A DNA stretch of 64,000 nt from Utricularia gibba (lineage: Eukaryota; Streptophyta; Magnoliopsida; Lamiales; Lentibulariaceae): positions 868,001 to 932,000 of the forward strand of contig CM007990.1 of NCBI GenBank assembly GCA_002189035.1, in the 5' to 3' direction. Shown one piece after another: positions 7,270 to 48,397 of this stretch (within the stretch, counting starts at the first letter, position 1; the number at the start of each line of letters is the position of its first letter). Both the position numbers and the translations under genes were made by a program. The notes under the pieces are model-generated. The model ran no database searches. It was given only the letters and a program-made list of their open reading frames with translations, and had not been told where the DNA came from.

Positions 7270-7572
7270 ATAAGTGAATTATCATATTTATTATATATGT
7301 GTGTAATAAGATAACAGATTACATGAATATCTGTAAATAATTAAGTGAATTGTCATCTTTATTATATATGTGTGTAATAAGATAACAGATTACATGAATA
7401 TCTGTAAATAATTAAGTGAATTGTCATCTTTATTATATATGTGTGTAATAAGATAACAGATTACATGAATTATCTGTAAATAATTAAGTGAATTGTCATC
7501 TTTATTATATATGTGTGTAATAAGATAACAGATTACATGAATATCTGTAAATAATTAAGTGAATTATTATGT
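7270..7572. repeat. Minisatellite, four copies of a 71-72 bp unit plus a partial fifth
   Basis: Unit boundaries, taken at the recurring ttaagtgaattgtcatc, fall at 7270, 7341, 7412, 7484 and 7555. Copies two to four are almost identical; the third has one extra T, and the first is slightly diverged. Each unit contains ttatatatgtgtgtaataag and gataacagattacatgaat. Near identity suggests recent amplification by slippage or unequal exchange. Confidence 0.92.
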
Positions 7573-18001: not shown

Positions 18002-19133
18002 TTTAGTATTTAGTGGAGACTGCTGCCTTGTTACTACATCCCCTGTACAGGATTTGCAGCAATCAAGCGAACGCATATTCAAGAATAACGCACTATTCCT
18101 ACTTCTTCCTCTTCCTATTACAACGAAACGCGAAATTTCGAATCCTAAACTCAATTACCACGAGCACGGTACCAAAAAGAAAACCCAGCGTTGATCACTC
18201 GCGTACAGAAAACATCAAACTACACAGAAATGTCCTTATTGAGGTTTCATCAGGCTTAGCAACCAGTAAGTTACATATAAAAGAAAACTACCTCGGGAGG
18301 TGCTGGAGATTTCGGAACCATTCTCCGAGAACGCCGCCGGCAGCAATTTTCGCCACCTCCCCGGCAGCGGCGCCGCGTCGGACAGTGCGCACAGACTCGT
18401 CCCGTGGGCACGGCCCACTCGTAAAGAAAGCAAAGTTCGTTACGATCATTCTCGATTGACCCCATCCCATGAAGCCCATTACATTTCTGAGGAAGTGGTC
18501 AAGCCCAATCCAAAGGATTAAAAATAAGATACACCTTATTATTATTATTTATCATTAAAAAAGAAACTATATGTATCTCTTGGGACGCAATTCTTTGAAA
18601 ATCATAGTTTATTAATATTTTTCTTATTAAAAAATATTAAATCGTGACTGTATCATAATTCATATTTATATTTTAAAATAATTTAAATTTAATCCAACCA
18701 ATATCATAAATAATTCATGATTTAATTCAGTTTAATCATAGTATTAATTAAACCTTCTGAAAAAAATTATTGTTTTTAAAATTAATTATAATTATAATAT
18801 TTATGCTAATCCATAAAAAAATGTTAAAAGTGAGATTATCATATTATAAAATCATTATTATTGTTTTAAAAGTAATTAATAATTATAATATTTACACTAT
18901 TTTCCATAAATAAATATATAAAATAATGAAACAAATTCCTAAAATTATATGTTATAATAGTTAGGATACTTTCCATAAATAAATAAGGAAATAAGATCCA
19001 AATCAACAGATATTTCATATAATATTTCTTAGATATTAATCATGTAATCTTGATATTTGCAACCGTATAAATACCCATACCATATACTTCAATATCTGTT
19101 CTGTGTTCTATGTGCCACCATAACGTCTTCTTC
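18002..19133. other. AT-rich spacer and F-box promoter
   Basis: The part near 18002-18500 is probably leader and promoter of the minus-strand gene. The rest is AT-rich without a gene. Confidence 0.5.
19066..19073 (+). promoter_or_regulatory. TATA box of F-box gene A
   Basis: TATAAATA, 68 bases upstream of the ATG at 19134. The same element, followed by a similar tatacttcaatat-like stretch, stands in front of the paralogue in locus B at a comparable distance, so the core promoter was duplicated with the gene. Confidence 0.7.
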
Positions 19134-20147
19134 ATGGATTCCAGTCTGCCTTTCGACATGGAGTACGAGGTTTTATCTCGAGTTACGACATTGCAAACGT
19201 TGGACACATGCAAAGCTGTGTCCAGGGAGTGGAAGAAGATGATCGACGGAACATGCTTCATGCCGGAGTTGTGCGAGAAGACGGGCATCATCTCCGGGTA
19301 CTTGTTGCAAGAAAATGGACGCACGAGATTTGCGTCACCTTGTAAGAGCAGCCCGAGTTTGATGGAGTTTCCCAAGGATAAGGAGATTCTGGCGGCATGC
19401 AGCCAGGGGCTTCTGTGCTGTGTCTCGAGAGAATGGAGGAAGGAGAGGTACTTCATTGGGAAGCCGGCGACTCAGCAATGGAGGCCGATTCCGAATCCCA
19501 AACTCCGGTACTGGACGGAGCAGGTGGGGCTCGTCGTGCTCGGCTCGAGTCCGCTGCGGTATCGGATCGTGCGGCTGTCGCGTGATACGAGGTGCCATAT
19601 AAACAAGATGCCTCCCTCTTTCTGTAGCTATCACTCCCAGATATGCGAGATTTTCGACTCGGAGACATGGCGGTGGAGGCGAGGGCCGGACGTGCAGTTC
19701 AATCACGGAGATGCGTGGGAGCCGCAGCCGTGTATTTCCATCGGCGCTCGGCTGTATTGGCTGACTTGCAGAAGTGTTCTAGCTTTCGACGTCGCCACGG
19801 GGTCGTATACGAGGGTAGCTTTACCGAGGGAAGACTGTAGGTTTCAGTTGGTGGAGCTGGAAGGGATGGCCGGAGTTCTCTCTACGGAGAAGGATTTGAT
19901 GGAGATGTGGTTCCTGAAAGAGTGGAGATGGAGGAAGGGAGCACAAGTGAAGAGGAAAGAGCTTGATGAATATAGCAACCTGAGTGTGGATGGCATGTAC
20001 AACGCTGGGATCGTCTTCCTGAGGGGAGTGTATCAGGTGGTGTTTCAGAATTTACAAGATCAGAGCTCAAGAAACGTGAAACTGGACATGATCTTCCCAA
20101 GCAGTGTGTTCGGATTCCGATCGGATTTAGAGAAGGTTCAGCTCTAG
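19134..20147 (+). CDS. F-box protein (copy A, intronless)
   Basis: An intact ORF of 337 residues. An F-box-like segment occupies residues about 5-45 (FDMEYEVLSRVTTLQTLDTCKAVSREWKKMI split around a conserved Trp); the rest resembles the F-box associated/kelch-like beta domain of plant F-box proteins (EIFDSETWRWRRG, RLYWLTCRSVLAFDVAT, MEMWFLKEWRW). Such proteins bind SKP1 through the F-box and bring substrates to an SCF ubiquitin ligase; the substrate is unknown. The ATG at 19134 matches the start of the paralogue at 42114; an in-frame ATG at 19110 would add eight residues without support. Colinear with the B copy over the full length but without its intron. Confidence 0.85.
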   Translation: MDSSLPFDMEYEVLSRVTTLQTLDTCKAVSREWKKMIDGTCFMPELCEKTGIISGYLLQENGRTRFASPCKSSPSLMEFPKDKEILAACSQGLLCCVSREWRKERYFIGKPATQQWRPIPNPKLRYWTEQVGLVVLGSSPLRYRIVRLSRDTRCHINKMPPSFCSYHSQICEIFDSETWRWRRGPDVQFNHGDAWEPQPCISIGARLYWLTCRSVLAFDVATGSYTRVALPREDCRFQLVELEGMAGVLSTEKDLMEMWFLKEWRWRKGAQVKRKELDEYSNLSVDGMYNAGIVFLRGVYQVVFQNLQDQSSRNVKLDMIFPSSVFGFRSDLEKVQL

Positions 20148-20254
20148 AGCCATGCAAACAGAGACACGAAACGAAGCACCTGAAACAAGCCAACTGTATA
20201 GTAGCAGTGTATAAAGGCCATTGCAGAGACATGATAAATAACTGGAAAAAGAGT

Positions 20255-25223
<4,969 letters not shown>

Positions 25224-37600: not shown

Positions 37601-39288
37601 GATGACTTAACTAGAGAGCAGATAGAGGAGAAGATTCGAAAAATAAAAGATGAACATAGTGAAGACAAGGGTAACATCCTTTTGCGTTTCATGCCTTTTG
37701 TTGTTCATAAGCTCTCTAATGTATTACCAGTATTTTCATAATTAAACTGACCATGTTTCCACGTTTTGTTTTTTGGTAATGAAGAATTTCCTGATGAAGT
37801 AGACACTCCATTAGATGTTGCTGCAAGACAACGATTTGCCAAGTACAGAGGTGTCAAATCCTTCAGAACCTCAACATGGGACCCCAAAGTATGATCTTCT
37901 TTTTGCATTTCCTGTTTTTCATATATAGATGCTATTTATGTTGATTGAATAAATGACTTTCTAGGAATCTCTGCCCCTGGAATACGCCAGGATATTTGCA
38001 TTTGATAATTTTGCGAGGACAAAAAAGCATGTCCTCGCCAAAGCCCTTGAAATGGAGAAAGACGTTAATGAATGCATACCAACTGGCTCCTATGCAAGGC
38101 TTTACATTAAGGGTGTAACTGCTGATGTTTCATCAAAGTTAGTTGCATTGGCAGAGACAACGCCAATAATAGCATCTGGGCTTTTACAGCATGAATCCAA
38201 AATCTCTGTTCTCCATTTCAGGTTCCTAACTTTGCTCCAAGGCTTCAATTTTTCTATACTTGCTTTTTAGTATATCTCTGACCGCATTATTTCTATCTGT
38301 AGTGTAAGGAAGCATGAAACTTACAGTGCTCCCATTAAATCAAAGGATGAGTTTTTATTTCATGTTGGATTCCGCCATATTATTTCAAGGTCAGCTTGCT
38401 AAAGCTTTTTCAAAAAATGGATTTAATTGCTAAAGTTTTACTCATAGGACTTGGTTTCGTCATCTGATTTTCAGGCCAATATTTTCTTCCGATAGTATCA
38501 ACTCAAACAAGCATAAAATGGAAAGGTTTCTTCATGAAGGGAGTTTCTCAGTAGCCTCGATATATGCTCCTGTTTGCTTTTCTCCTGTTCCTGTAATTGC
38601 CTTGAAAATCCAAGAAAAAGCAGCTCCAGTTTTAGCTGCTGTTGGCTCGTTGAAAAGCGTGGATCCTGACAGAATTGTTCTTAAGAAAATCATTTTAACT
38701 GGGTAAGACATCGTTTGCCATGCATCTTTGTGTCAATGATAGCGAAGGTTCATGTGTCCTTTATTAACAGCTCATCCTTGGTATGCTAAGACTGAATGTG
38801 GAACGCAGTTTACTATTCATCGATTAAGCCATGTCTGAAGATTCAGATGAGCTACTGATTCATCATTACATTAACTCTTTTGACAGTTATCCTCAGCGTG
38901 TGTCCAAATCTAAAGCTACTGTGAGGTACATGTTTCACAACCCAGAAGATGTGAGGTGGTTCAAGGTAGGCAATCATGCTTTTTTATGGTGAGACTCCCT
39001 CTTGGGCTCCTTGAGTAATATGATTGATGTGGCTGCAGCCCGTTGAACTTTGGACAAAATGCGGTCGCCGTGGTCGCATCAAGGAATCCGTGGGAACACA
39101 TGGTATGTCAATCCATCCGGCAAGATGTAAAACGAAGAGAGAAACTAATATGTTTGTTCTCAGGTGCAATGAAATGCATATTCAACGGCGTCGTTCAGCA
39201 GCACGACACAGTTTGCATGAACTTGTACAAGCGCACGTATCCAAAGTGGCCACAGCGATGGTTTCCCTTGCAGGCTCCAACCACATGA
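34643..39288 (+). CDS. TSR1: Pre-rRNA-processing protein TSR1 homologue
   Basis: About twenty short exons on the plus strand read through from [16 protein letters not shown] to a C-terminus ending [13 protein letters not shown]. Recognisable in order: basic N-terminus; GTPase-like domain of the Bms1/Tsr1 family ([35 protein letters not shown]); the [12 protein letters not shown] and [11 protein letters not shown] stretch; an acidic linker ([20 protein letters not shown]); [17 protein letters not shown]; and the C-terminal domain with [28 protein letters not shown] and [24 protein letters not shown]. Tsr1 joins nucleolar/cytoplasmic pre-40S particles and is needed for small-subunit maturation; the GTPase fold lacks nucleotide-binding motifs, and no canonical P-loop is seen here either. 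Exon boundaries checked have consistent phase. A broken copy of its late exons lies at 20255-20671. Confidence 0.93.
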
Positions 39289-40469
39289 GCCTGGCACATG
39301 GATGCAAAATGATTCATTCTTGGGAATGAAGCGTTGGTTCAGATTGGCATACGATGGAGGAGCTGTCTCCTGCCGCAGAATCACAGTTTTGATTGATAAC
39401 AGTTTCTATTGTTGTGGTCACTTCCTTTTAGTGGGCTGTTTAGTTGTTTATTTTGTGTCTGCACTGGCCTTGTTACTGCTACTATCCACTTGGCTTGTTC
39501 AGTGTCTACGTTTCAGGTGCTTTCTTTCATATTTTTGTACTACATTACTTCATTAGTCACATGGCTGATTGGAGGTGGAGCCATACATTAGAGGTGGAGT
39601 CATGCATTACAGGGTAACTATGAAGACAGCCTTAAAGATCGCCAAGGAATTCTTGTGCCCAAGATCAAACCAAATGAAATCTATTCACATCTCTTTGGAG
39701 ATCAGTAATGCTAAAGATTAGAATTTTTTTATGACAAGCTAACATGAACAGGTTGTACATGGGGGATAACATGATGGTTAGACGGACACAGGCAGAGATA
39801 GGTAAGAGACTTCACTTATTCTGGTTAATCTAAAACATAAAGTCTAATTCTTGTTCTTGTTGAAATTGGATAAGTGAAAGTTACTTTCTTATCATTCAAT
39901 GAGCATCTTAGATTTGTGTTTGGTGCGATCAGAGTATTGAAATAATGGATCATTTCATGTTTGCATGTATCTTGTTAAATTGTCTATGGAGATGTAGATT
40001 GGATTGGTGACATCTTAACAGGTCAATCATATATATCTATCTCAACATGAGACTCATTTTGTCCAAGTTGAATTCAATCAAAAAGTCAAACAAGCATAGT
40101 TTTCTATCATTATTTCTATGGTGTGGCATATATGGCAACTATGAAATAAGAAGCAGTTCAATGAACAAAGCAATGGAATCGTGGAAATGATCAAAAAGAG
40201 TTTATACTTCATACAAAGTGAGTTCATGTCACAGTTACAAACAAGAGAGAACTTCAACATGATCCCTATTAATGATTGGTTGAGAGGGCAATGGAAAGAA
40301 CTCCCCCTCCAAACCTAATGGGTATTGGTTTCAAATTTGACAGGTTAATAGAGGCTAAAATATAGAAAGATGTCGTTAACGGTGAAAAGAAACATTCTAG
40401 TTTTTCTACTAACTGTAAAAAAATACAAAAAAAAAAAACTTTATTATAATTTGTTACACCGAATCTTGT
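39289..40469. other. 3' flanks of TSR1 and F-box gene B
   Basis: Converging 3' regions. Short open frames only. A run of A near 40425-40438 lies close to the F-box stop on the opposite strand. Confidence 0.55.
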
Positions 40470-42114
40470 TCAGAGCTGAACCTTTTCTAAATCTGATCGG
40501 AATTTGAACACGCTTGGGAAGATCATGTCCAGTTTCACTTTTCTTGAGCTCTGATCTTGTAAATTCTGAAACACCACCTGATACACTCCCCTCAAGAAGA
40601 CGATCCCAGCATTGTACATGCCCTCAACACTCAGGTTGCTATATCCATCAAGCTCTTTCCTCTTCACTTGTATTCCCTTACCCCATCTCCACTCTTTCAG
40701 GAACCATATATCCATCAAATCCTTCTTCGGGGAGAGAACTCCGACCATCCCTTCCTGCTCCACCAACTGAAAATTAAATTCTTTCCTCGGTAGAGCTACC
40801 CTCGTATACGACTCCGTGGCAACATCGAAAGCTATAACACTTATGCATGTCAGCCAATACAGCCGAGAGCCCATGGAAATACACGGCTGCGGATCCCACG
40901 CACCTTCGTGTCTGAAGTCCAAGTCCGGCCCTCGCCTCCATCGCCATGTCTCCGAGTCGAAAATCTCGCACATCTGGCGGTTATAGCTATAGAAGGAATG
41001 AGGCATCTTGTAAGTATTGGGCCTCGCATCAATCGACAACCGCACAATCCGATACTGCAGCGGACTCAAACTGAGCACGACGAGCCCCACCTTCTTCGTC
41101 CAATACCGGAGTTTGGGATTCGGAATCGGCCTCCATTGCTGAGCCGCCGGCTTCCCAATGAAGTACCTATCGTAAATCCAACACCAAAACCGACAAAATG
41201 ATCAAGACTATCTCTGGTACGTATACTTATTCTACAATTACTTGTTTGATCGGTGTGTTTAGTTATTAATGAATTTAAATTATTTAAATTTAACTAAACC
41301 CAAATATATGTGTATAAAAATACCTATACCCCCACTTGAGTATACATATATTTATAACTAAGAATATTATATAGATATAATGATTATTACTTATATATAG
41401 AATATAAATATACCTACACATCAAATAATACAATTTTATTAAACCCATCATAAATTAACCTTATAACTTCATAACAAACAAGGTCTAAAGGATTTTTTAA
41501 TCACTTAGGCTATGTTTGATTAGTGTGTTTAAATGTTGATGGATTTAAATTATTTAAATAGATAAATTCAAAAATATGAGTATAAAAACATACATACCCT
41601 TTTAGATATATATATATTCATATATAATGATATTATATGAATATAATATCACAAATCAATCTTACACCTTCATATCAAATAAGTTATTACGATTAAATAA
41701 GCCTATAAAAAACATTATTTCATATAAACTAATTAAACTAGATTTCAATTATAAATACGAAATTCCACACCTCTTATTCAATACTAAATTTCAAACATAC
41801 CTCGGCTTCCTCCATTCTCTGGTAACACCACACACGAGCCCCTGGCTGCATGCCGCCAGTATCTGCATATCCCCAAGGAACTCCATCGAATTCGGGCTGC
41901 TTTTACAAGGTGACACAAATCGTGTGCGTCCATTTTCATTCAGCAAGTACCCGGAGATGATCCCCGTCTTCTCGCACAACTCCGACATGAAGCATGTTTC
42001 GTTGATCATCTTCTTCCACTCCTTGGACACAACTTTGCATGTGTCCAGCGTTTGCAATGTTGTGACTCGGGATAAAATCTCGTATTCGATATCGGAAGGC
42101 GTACTAGAATCCAT
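40470..42114 (-). CDS. F-box protein (copy B, one intron)
   Basis: Two exons, 41801-42114 and 40470-41166, give 336 residues colinear with copy A (337 residues) from MDSSTPSDIEYEILSR to FRSDLEKVQL. The F-box-like region is at residues 5-45 and the F-box associated beta domain follows (MCEIFDSETWRWRRG, RLYWLTC, DIWFLKEWRWGKG). Both copies keep an open frame, which suggests that both are or were under selection. The only intron, 41167-41800, splits codon AG/G of the Arg before YFIGK, where copy A has uninterrupted GAGAGGTAC. Presumed role: substrate receptor of an SCF E3 ligase; substrate unknown. Confidence 0.85.
41167..41800 (-). mobile_element. Copy-specific intron of F-box B, probably inserted DNA
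   Basis: The 634-bp intron has donor GTATGT and acceptor ATAG. Direct repeats AGGTA stand at both ends (exon/intron AG/GTA and AG/GTA), as a target-site duplication would. Inside are two similar blocks, about 41244-41345 and 41513-41610, each starting tttgat.ggtgtgtttA and running into gaatttaaattatttaaa, and tttgtt/aacaaa-like inverted ends, as in tandem MITE copies. Superfamily not assigned. Confidence 0.55.
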
Positions 42115-42346
42115 GAAATAATTATAATGATACAAAAAACATGCAATATATACTGAAGTATAATGTATGTATTTATAAAATTGAAAATATTAAAAATTCA
42201 AAGATTGAATACATATGTTATTTCATGGGTATTATTTAACTTAACTTTTGATTAACATAAACTACTATAACATAGTTTTTTAGGGAATTTGTTATAGTGT
42301 TTTTTAATTTGCTTATAATTATTAATAAAATATTAAAAATAAAATT

Positions 42347-42378
<32 letters not shown>

Positions 42379-42969
42379 TTGATAATCCCACTTTAAAAAA
42401 TTGGAGAAAATTACAATAACAATACTTTAAATTTTAATTATTATTAAAAATCTAACATTCAAGTTTCAAAATTATAAAAAAAAAATAATTCAAATTATCA
42501 AAATCACACAATAAAAATTTAAATGGTTTTCAAAAATTTTAAAAAGTAAATATATTCACGATATCATAAATCAGCTCTCATTTCAAACTCAATAGAATTT
42601 TGTATTAGGATTTTCGTATTCACATCTAAAGTTTGGTAAATTAAATGATAGCCATGTTAGGATTATATTTTATTTGTATCTCATATGATTTAAAGTGATG
42701 ATGATGATTATATCACATTTATGTTTATAAAAAAAGATAATTTAAAGAGTTGATGACATAATTTTAAAATTTGAAGGTTTAATTTATTTATATCCATTGT
42801 AAGTTGAGATGATGTCACCAAACCCCACCTTTCTCAATTGTTTATGAAAAGTAAGTAAATATTATAATTATTAATTAATTTTAAAAGAGTAAAAATTATA
42901 ATAATATGATAATTCCACGCAGAAGTTACTAGAAGCAGAGCAGTGATCAGATGGCGACTCCGCCGCTTG
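42115..42969. other. AT-rich spacer between F-box B and beta-galactosidase
   Basis: Promoter of F-box B, an (AAT) microsatellite at about 42348-42378, and the 3' flank of the beta-galactosidase gene. No gene. Confidence 0.6.
42170..42177 (-). promoter_or_regulatory. TATA box of F-box gene B
   Basis: TATAAATA read on the minus strand, 56 bases upstream of the ATG, followed by atacttcagtatat. Homologous to the element at 19066-19073. Confidence 0.7.

Positions 42970-48397
<5,428 letters not shown>

Follow-up and report, generated by a model that had tools for sequence, protein, structure and literature searches.

A Ty1/copia solo LTR between duplicated AGGTA target sites as the probable source of an intron in a plant F-box gene

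Introduction

For most recent intron gains no source can be identified (PMC3443670). In the transposon-insertion model, an element that enters an AGGT target and duplicates it provides an AG/GT donor on one side and an AG/G acceptor on the other, leaving the coding sequence unchanged (Yenerall and Zhou 2012, a review, PMC3443670). The transposon-made introns described there come from Oryza, Zea, Drosophila and Oikopleura, and rice CatA (Iwamoto 1998) and maize Ds (Giroux 1994) are cited as plant introns made by transposable elements (PMC3443670). In Arabidopsis, cDNA sequencing showed that exonic insertions of the Ty1/copia element ONSEN are spliced out as new introns (PMC12112155). A natural gain is known from Drosophila sechellia, where intron 3 of GM26034 derives from the retrotransposon Doc1053 and carries target duplications (PMC3296678). 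On a larger scale, introners are families of transposon-derived introns, many of them with target duplications, none of which have been found in land plants (Gozashti et al. 2022, PMC9860276). Here an intron that is present in only one of two plant F-box paralogues was analyzed base by base and compared with these systems.

Results

Two colinear F-box paralogues differing by one intron

The window analyzed is a 64,000-nucleotide stretch of plant DNA (G000:C2:868001-932000; positions below are those of the window). F-box copy A (19134-20147, plus strand) is intronless and consists of a single uninterrupted 337-aa open reading frame. Copy B, on the minus strand, occupies 40470-42114 as a whole gene, with exon 1 at 42114-41801 (314 nt, covering codons 1-104 plus two bases of codon 105, colinear with A) and a phase 2 GT-AG intron at 41800-41167 (634 nt, GTATGT...GATAG). 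Exon 2 occupies 41166-40470; it is 89% identical to A in DNA and stays open up to the stop that both genes share. Removal of the intron leaves a 336-aa frame that is colinear with A and differs from it in length by one in-frame 3-nt indel, which bears out the first-pass annotation in its description of colinear copies that differ by a 634-bp intron in B. When exon 1 of B is read unspliced, an in-frame stop is met 3 codons into the intron. AT content is 78% in the intron versus 51% in the exons, and plant introns are usually AT-rich. The A protein scored above the Pfam cut-off for the At3g26010-like propeller and the F-box-like Pfam matches were sub-threshold; by these matches the A and B products are F-box/beta-propeller-like.

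The motif AGGTA occurs once in the coding sequence of A, at CDS position 313, which is the intron site, and stands in B at both intron ends (41802-41798 and 41168-41164). These positions, read directly from the sequence, agree with the direct repeat that had been noted earlier. By itself, such a 5-bp repeat is weak evidence and suggestive only, because AG/GTA...AG/G is near the ordinary splice consensus, and across an intron it holds only about two informative bases; the proof is the LTR homology described below.

The two copies lie within an inverted segmental duplication of permuted order, in which 18774-21067 on the plus strand corresponds to 42913-38332 and 48111-47671 on the minus strand. 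This order could be explained by a circle comprising 38332-48111 that opened within a beta-galactosidase gene and was reinserted, or by tandem duplication with subsequent deletion and inversion. In the A copy, the 3' flank of the F-box gene is joined directly to the 5' part of this LacZ-type beta-galactosidase gene, with the junction near 20671-20673. Directly after the stop codon of B lie about 930 bp of dispersed-repeat DNA (39515-40469) that are absent from A. C3, C317 and C328 carry relatives of this DNA, and one 112-bp block of it recurs at 89–95% on C516, C515 and C402. Elsewhere in the window, 7271-7565 holds tandemly arrayed units of about 71 bp that are 97–98% identical to one another.

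The intron body and a dispersed family of LTRs

Copies of both main constituents of the intron were recovered when its sequence was sought elsewhere in the genome, namely dispersed LTR copies and, as detailed below, a MITE. Copy numbers from these genome searches are lower bounds. For the opening 111 nt of the intron, seven dispersed relatives were found whose similarity starts at intron base 1-10, and over the 5' 95 nt the homology that the dispersed copies share with one another begins at the same base (TGTTGGAAAT). The dispersed copies start TGTTGGAAATTTAG, and in two of them (L043 and L044) the other end matches the intron over its last 34-37 nt (...GTGTTCGATTTACAACG). Using these copies as queries yielded additional family members. 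Profiles were built from the first 100 nt and the last 70 nt of the other genomic copies, with B excluded. Each gave a sole significant match in the window, at 41796-41716 for the 5' profile (E 3.2e-10) and at 41227-41172 for the 3' profile (E 4.8e-5), so that both LTR ends were matched in order and in the same orientation at the two ends of the intron; the best E value in a reversed-window control was 0.4. A first-look DNA search of the genome with the last 76 bases of the intron returned no other copy, and since these bases are LTR by profile, a search of this type misses old copies.

The termini of the B sequence include the TG start, and its end reads GAT versus ACA or ACG in relatives, consistent with decay. 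Specifically, the 3' terminus is TTTACGAT in B and TTTACAACA in the relatives, with the terminal CA gone and one base missing, and about 130–270 bp of the LTR middle are absent. By homology to these copies, the body of the B intron is a solo LTR belonging to a Ty1/copia family with dispersed members.

Full LTR copies of the family measure 305–446 bp and have TG...CA/CG termini. Target duplications of 5 bp were found at 7 other copies, 6 of them exact and one matching at 4/5 positions; five isolated copies have the exact duplications GATCT, TGATT, GACAA, ATATT and TTATG, and the 4/5 match belongs to one further copy. The short copy L041 showed no target duplication. Several copies are preceded by the purine-rich AATATGTGGAGGAT, as 3' LTRs; after others, as 5' LTRs, come a leader that they have in common and ATGGATCC. 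A full-length member of 4.5 kb (C402:2063674-2068169) is bounded by two LTRs and has the target duplication AGAAG, and its separate reading frames match Pfam RVT_2 (E 1e-12) and SH3_retrovirus. Judged by the Pfam matches of this element as found, it encodes a copia reverse transcriptase. In a search for more places where AGGTA adjoins the LTR start, 19 places in the genome resembled AGGTATGTTGGAAAT, and no LTR copy was present among the four of these 19 that were read.

Composition of the intron

In the direction of transcription (minus strand), the interval opens with the left target-site duplication AGGTA (41798-41802), of which AG is exonic and GTA forms the intron start (AG/GTA 5' splice site). 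The LTR begins at the next base, B reading AGGTA followed directly by TGTTTGAAATTTAG, and its 5' part (41705-41797) is the stretch matched by the 7 dispersed copies and the 5' profile. It is followed by nested MITE 2 (41507-41704, limits approximate), a short diverged relative and 76% direct repeat of MITE 1 with the ends GGCTTATTT...AACATAGCC, then by a short middle piece of the LTR between the MITEs, ending TCCTTTA (41487-41506) and recognized from the gain in 3' LTR profile score on joining, and by nested MITE 1 of about 251 bp (41234-41486), recognized from its other copies (74–82% identity), its ends and its flanks. The 3' end of the solo LTR (41169-41233, ...TTGATCATTTTGTCGGTTTTGGTGTTGGATTTACGAT) closes with GTGTTGGATTTACGAT at the base immediately before the right target-site duplication AGGTA (41164-41168), where AG is the 3' splice site and GTA opens exon 2.

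The sequence of the intron that is not transposable element thus amounts to a 5' GTA and a 3' AG, which belong to the target duplication itself. As the intron comprises the LTR, the nested MITEs and the target duplication, and nothing else, it was made by insertion. Insertion of the LTR and MITEs into an old intron that was already present would fit with plant introns commonly taking transposon insertions, and the nested MITEs show that the B intron tolerates them, but this history is very improbable given that no remnant of an older intron is left and that A has no intron at the site; it was ruled out, transposable elements and target duplication accounting for the whole of the B intron. An origin by tandem duplication of exon sequence containing AGGT was likewise ruled out, since the homology of the intron is to LTR and MITE copies and not to the adjoining exon.

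Nested MITEs as later insertions

The search with the whole intron brought up at least 39 other genomic copies of its 3'-central block (intron 307-561), which is MITE 1. These are about 251 bp long, have the ends GGCCTTGTTTG/CAAACAAGGCC and are flanked by TNA-type 3-bp duplications. The family ends are GRCCTTGTTTG/CAAACAAGGYC, and the 3-bp target duplication in the B intron is TTA/TTG. From their ends and TNA duplications, the MITEs of the B intron appear Tourist/PIF-like.

The MITE-like blocks pointed out in the first-pass annotation are therefore real, but they are later insertions within the LTR and not, as its wording suggested, the makers of the intron. When the flanks of MITE 1 were joined in silico, the 3' LTR score rose from 17.6 to 32.1 bits, and the final 83 positions of the LTR model were matched without a break; control joins elsewhere gave a mean of 17 bits, and the best of them (29.4) nearly reproduced the same junction. 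Since the LTR match is continuous across the joined flanks, the LTR came first and MITE 1 later. A DNA transposon origin of the intron could appeal to the share of the MITE copies, which occupy about 70% of it, but the MITEs duplicate 3-bp targets of TNA type, and their ends sit 96 and 65 nt inside the intron, so that the splice sites are not explained by them. Given the scores before and after joining, the MITEs were ruled out as makers of the intron, and the chance that they created it is negligible. The predicted RNA fold of the intron was more stable than that of shuffled sequences (z −2.2), as expected because of the nested inverted repeats.

Proposed origin of the intron and its splicing

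The explanation that accommodates these observations, and that is very probably correct, is that insertion of a copia LTR element at AGGTA made the B intron. A retrotransposon of the Ty1/copia family would have entered an F-box gene without introns, in sense orientation, at its only AGGTA, and these 5 bp would have been duplicated at insertion (...CCG AGGTA CTTC becoming ...CCG AGGTA [TG...LTR...] AGGTA CTTC). Recombination between the two LTRs of the element would have left the solo LTR. In the resulting donor AG/GTATGT, GTA would come from the left target copy and TG(T) from the invariant LTR start, and the acceptor AG/GTA would be the right target copy, placed behind the T-rich LTR end. Splicing between the AGGTA copies would give back the exact old coding sequence, and the insertion would therefore have been tolerated. 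The two Tourist-like MITEs would later have entered the LTR, part of its middle being lost, to give the present 634-bp AT-rich intron. The earlier proposal that mobile DNA had inserted here and that its target duplication had become both splice sites is thus upheld, with a solo LTR filling the interval between the AGGTA copies.

Splicing of the B intron is likely in view of the intact frame, the rare proto-splice target, the in-frame stop and the AT-rich composition. Within the gene, 5-bp targets containing AGGT make up 1.0–1.4%, and the spliced frame of B is open, where a neutral lineage of equal divergence would carry about 3–4 stops and about 7 indels. B might instead be a pseudogene with an unspliced LTR, its GT and AG being a mere consequence of any AGGTA target, and the A/B comparison, with a ratio only moderately low (dN 0.105, dS 0.205 overall), leaves some room for this. 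It is, however, quite improbable: no stop or frameshift interrupts the 1,011 coding nt of B (the probability of no stop being about 0.01–0.1 from substitutions alone, to which the expected indels add), the chance of landing on an AGGT target is about 1%, and the junction restores the frame exactly.

Timing of the insertion relative to the A/B duplication

The insertion origin of the intron needs no outgroup, because it follows from the intron content, and since the intron itself is a transposon, an outgroup intron at the site would shift only the date and not the origin. On timing, an insertion that took place after the A/B duplication is favored as probable. The ancestral intronless state is suggested, if weakly, by the two closest outgroups in the genome, both of them weak: a short decayed pseudogene fragment (L006, C213:2409282-2412455) with about 66% DNA identity to A and B that is intronless at the site, and a distant intact paralogue (L004), only 27% identical, that crosses the site without an intron. 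Another decayed fragment of the same F-box family was found at C244:3285421-3288609 (L005).

Precise intron loss in A, which had been raised earlier as the alternative, could have occurred as a separate later event, since the empty site and spliced mRNA are identical in sequence. The LTR would then have inserted before the A/B duplication, and A would have lost the intron precisely via its own spliced cDNA. The terminal branch of the B LTR (0.11–0.14) is not shorter than the A/B per-lineage divergence (about 0.06–0.10), as this order of events would have it, but the branch length comes from about 140 sites and its errors are large. The A/B flanks show a divergence of mostly 0.09–0.18. Synonymous divergence falls from 0.37 in exon 1 to 0.14 in exon 2 (post hoc Fisher test, p=0.011), a step near the B intron such as gene conversion limited to the 3' side might leave, and the higher divergence 5' than 3' of the site could mark a conversion tract accompanying loss. 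Against an earlier insertion, loss in A needs an extra event, and the two outgroups just described likewise lack the intron. In addition, A and B differ 4–5 bases upstream of the junction, so that A was not overwritten by a B-derived cDNA reaching upstream of the site. Altogether, an insertion older than the duplication has an appreciable but minor chance, and insertion in B after the duplication is the preferred order.

Discussion

The origin of spliceosomal introns is a long-standing question, and in B the source, target duplication, empty site and splice sites of an intron can all be read base by base. The case comes from a land plant, a group in which no introner bursts have been found (PMC9860276). 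It also yields a simple rule, by which target GTA and LTR TG combine into GTATGT, that lends itself to testing in plant genomes. One may speculate that this family of TG-start solo LTRs is predisposed to make introns at (A)GGTA, because target GTA and LTR TG(T) form the donor GTATGT and the LTR end offers a branch point and T-rich tract, and that more such introns occur in this plant. This extension is unlikely; if true, the family would be an introner of LTR type, a kind not yet reported from land plants. Introners are families that make many introns (PMC9860276), and of the B type one intron is known.

In a literature search that covered few subscription journals, no fixed plant intron was found that consists of a solo LTR with both splice sites derived from the target duplication. 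Among the plant introns made by transposable elements, that of rice CatA is reportedly a SINE and the maize Ds-made intron is said to come from a DNA transposon, neither being an LTR. The ONSEN insertions of Arabidopsis are alike in that an LTR retrotransposon of the same superfamily lies in an exon and is removed as an intron, splicing being inferred in B; the ONSEN insertions are experimental, a few generations old and full-length, whereas the B element is old, has shrunk to a solo LTR and takes its splice sites from the target duplication (PMC12112155). The Doc1053 intron of Drosophila sechellia differs in that its source is a non-LTR element and five amino acids were added, whereas the junction in B is exact (PMC3296678). 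The mechanism proposed for the B intron is already known, its solo-LTR form in a plant being a further case; it follows exactly the same scheme as the transposon-insertion model, here with a solo LTR and with both splice sites accounted for base by base (PMC3443670).
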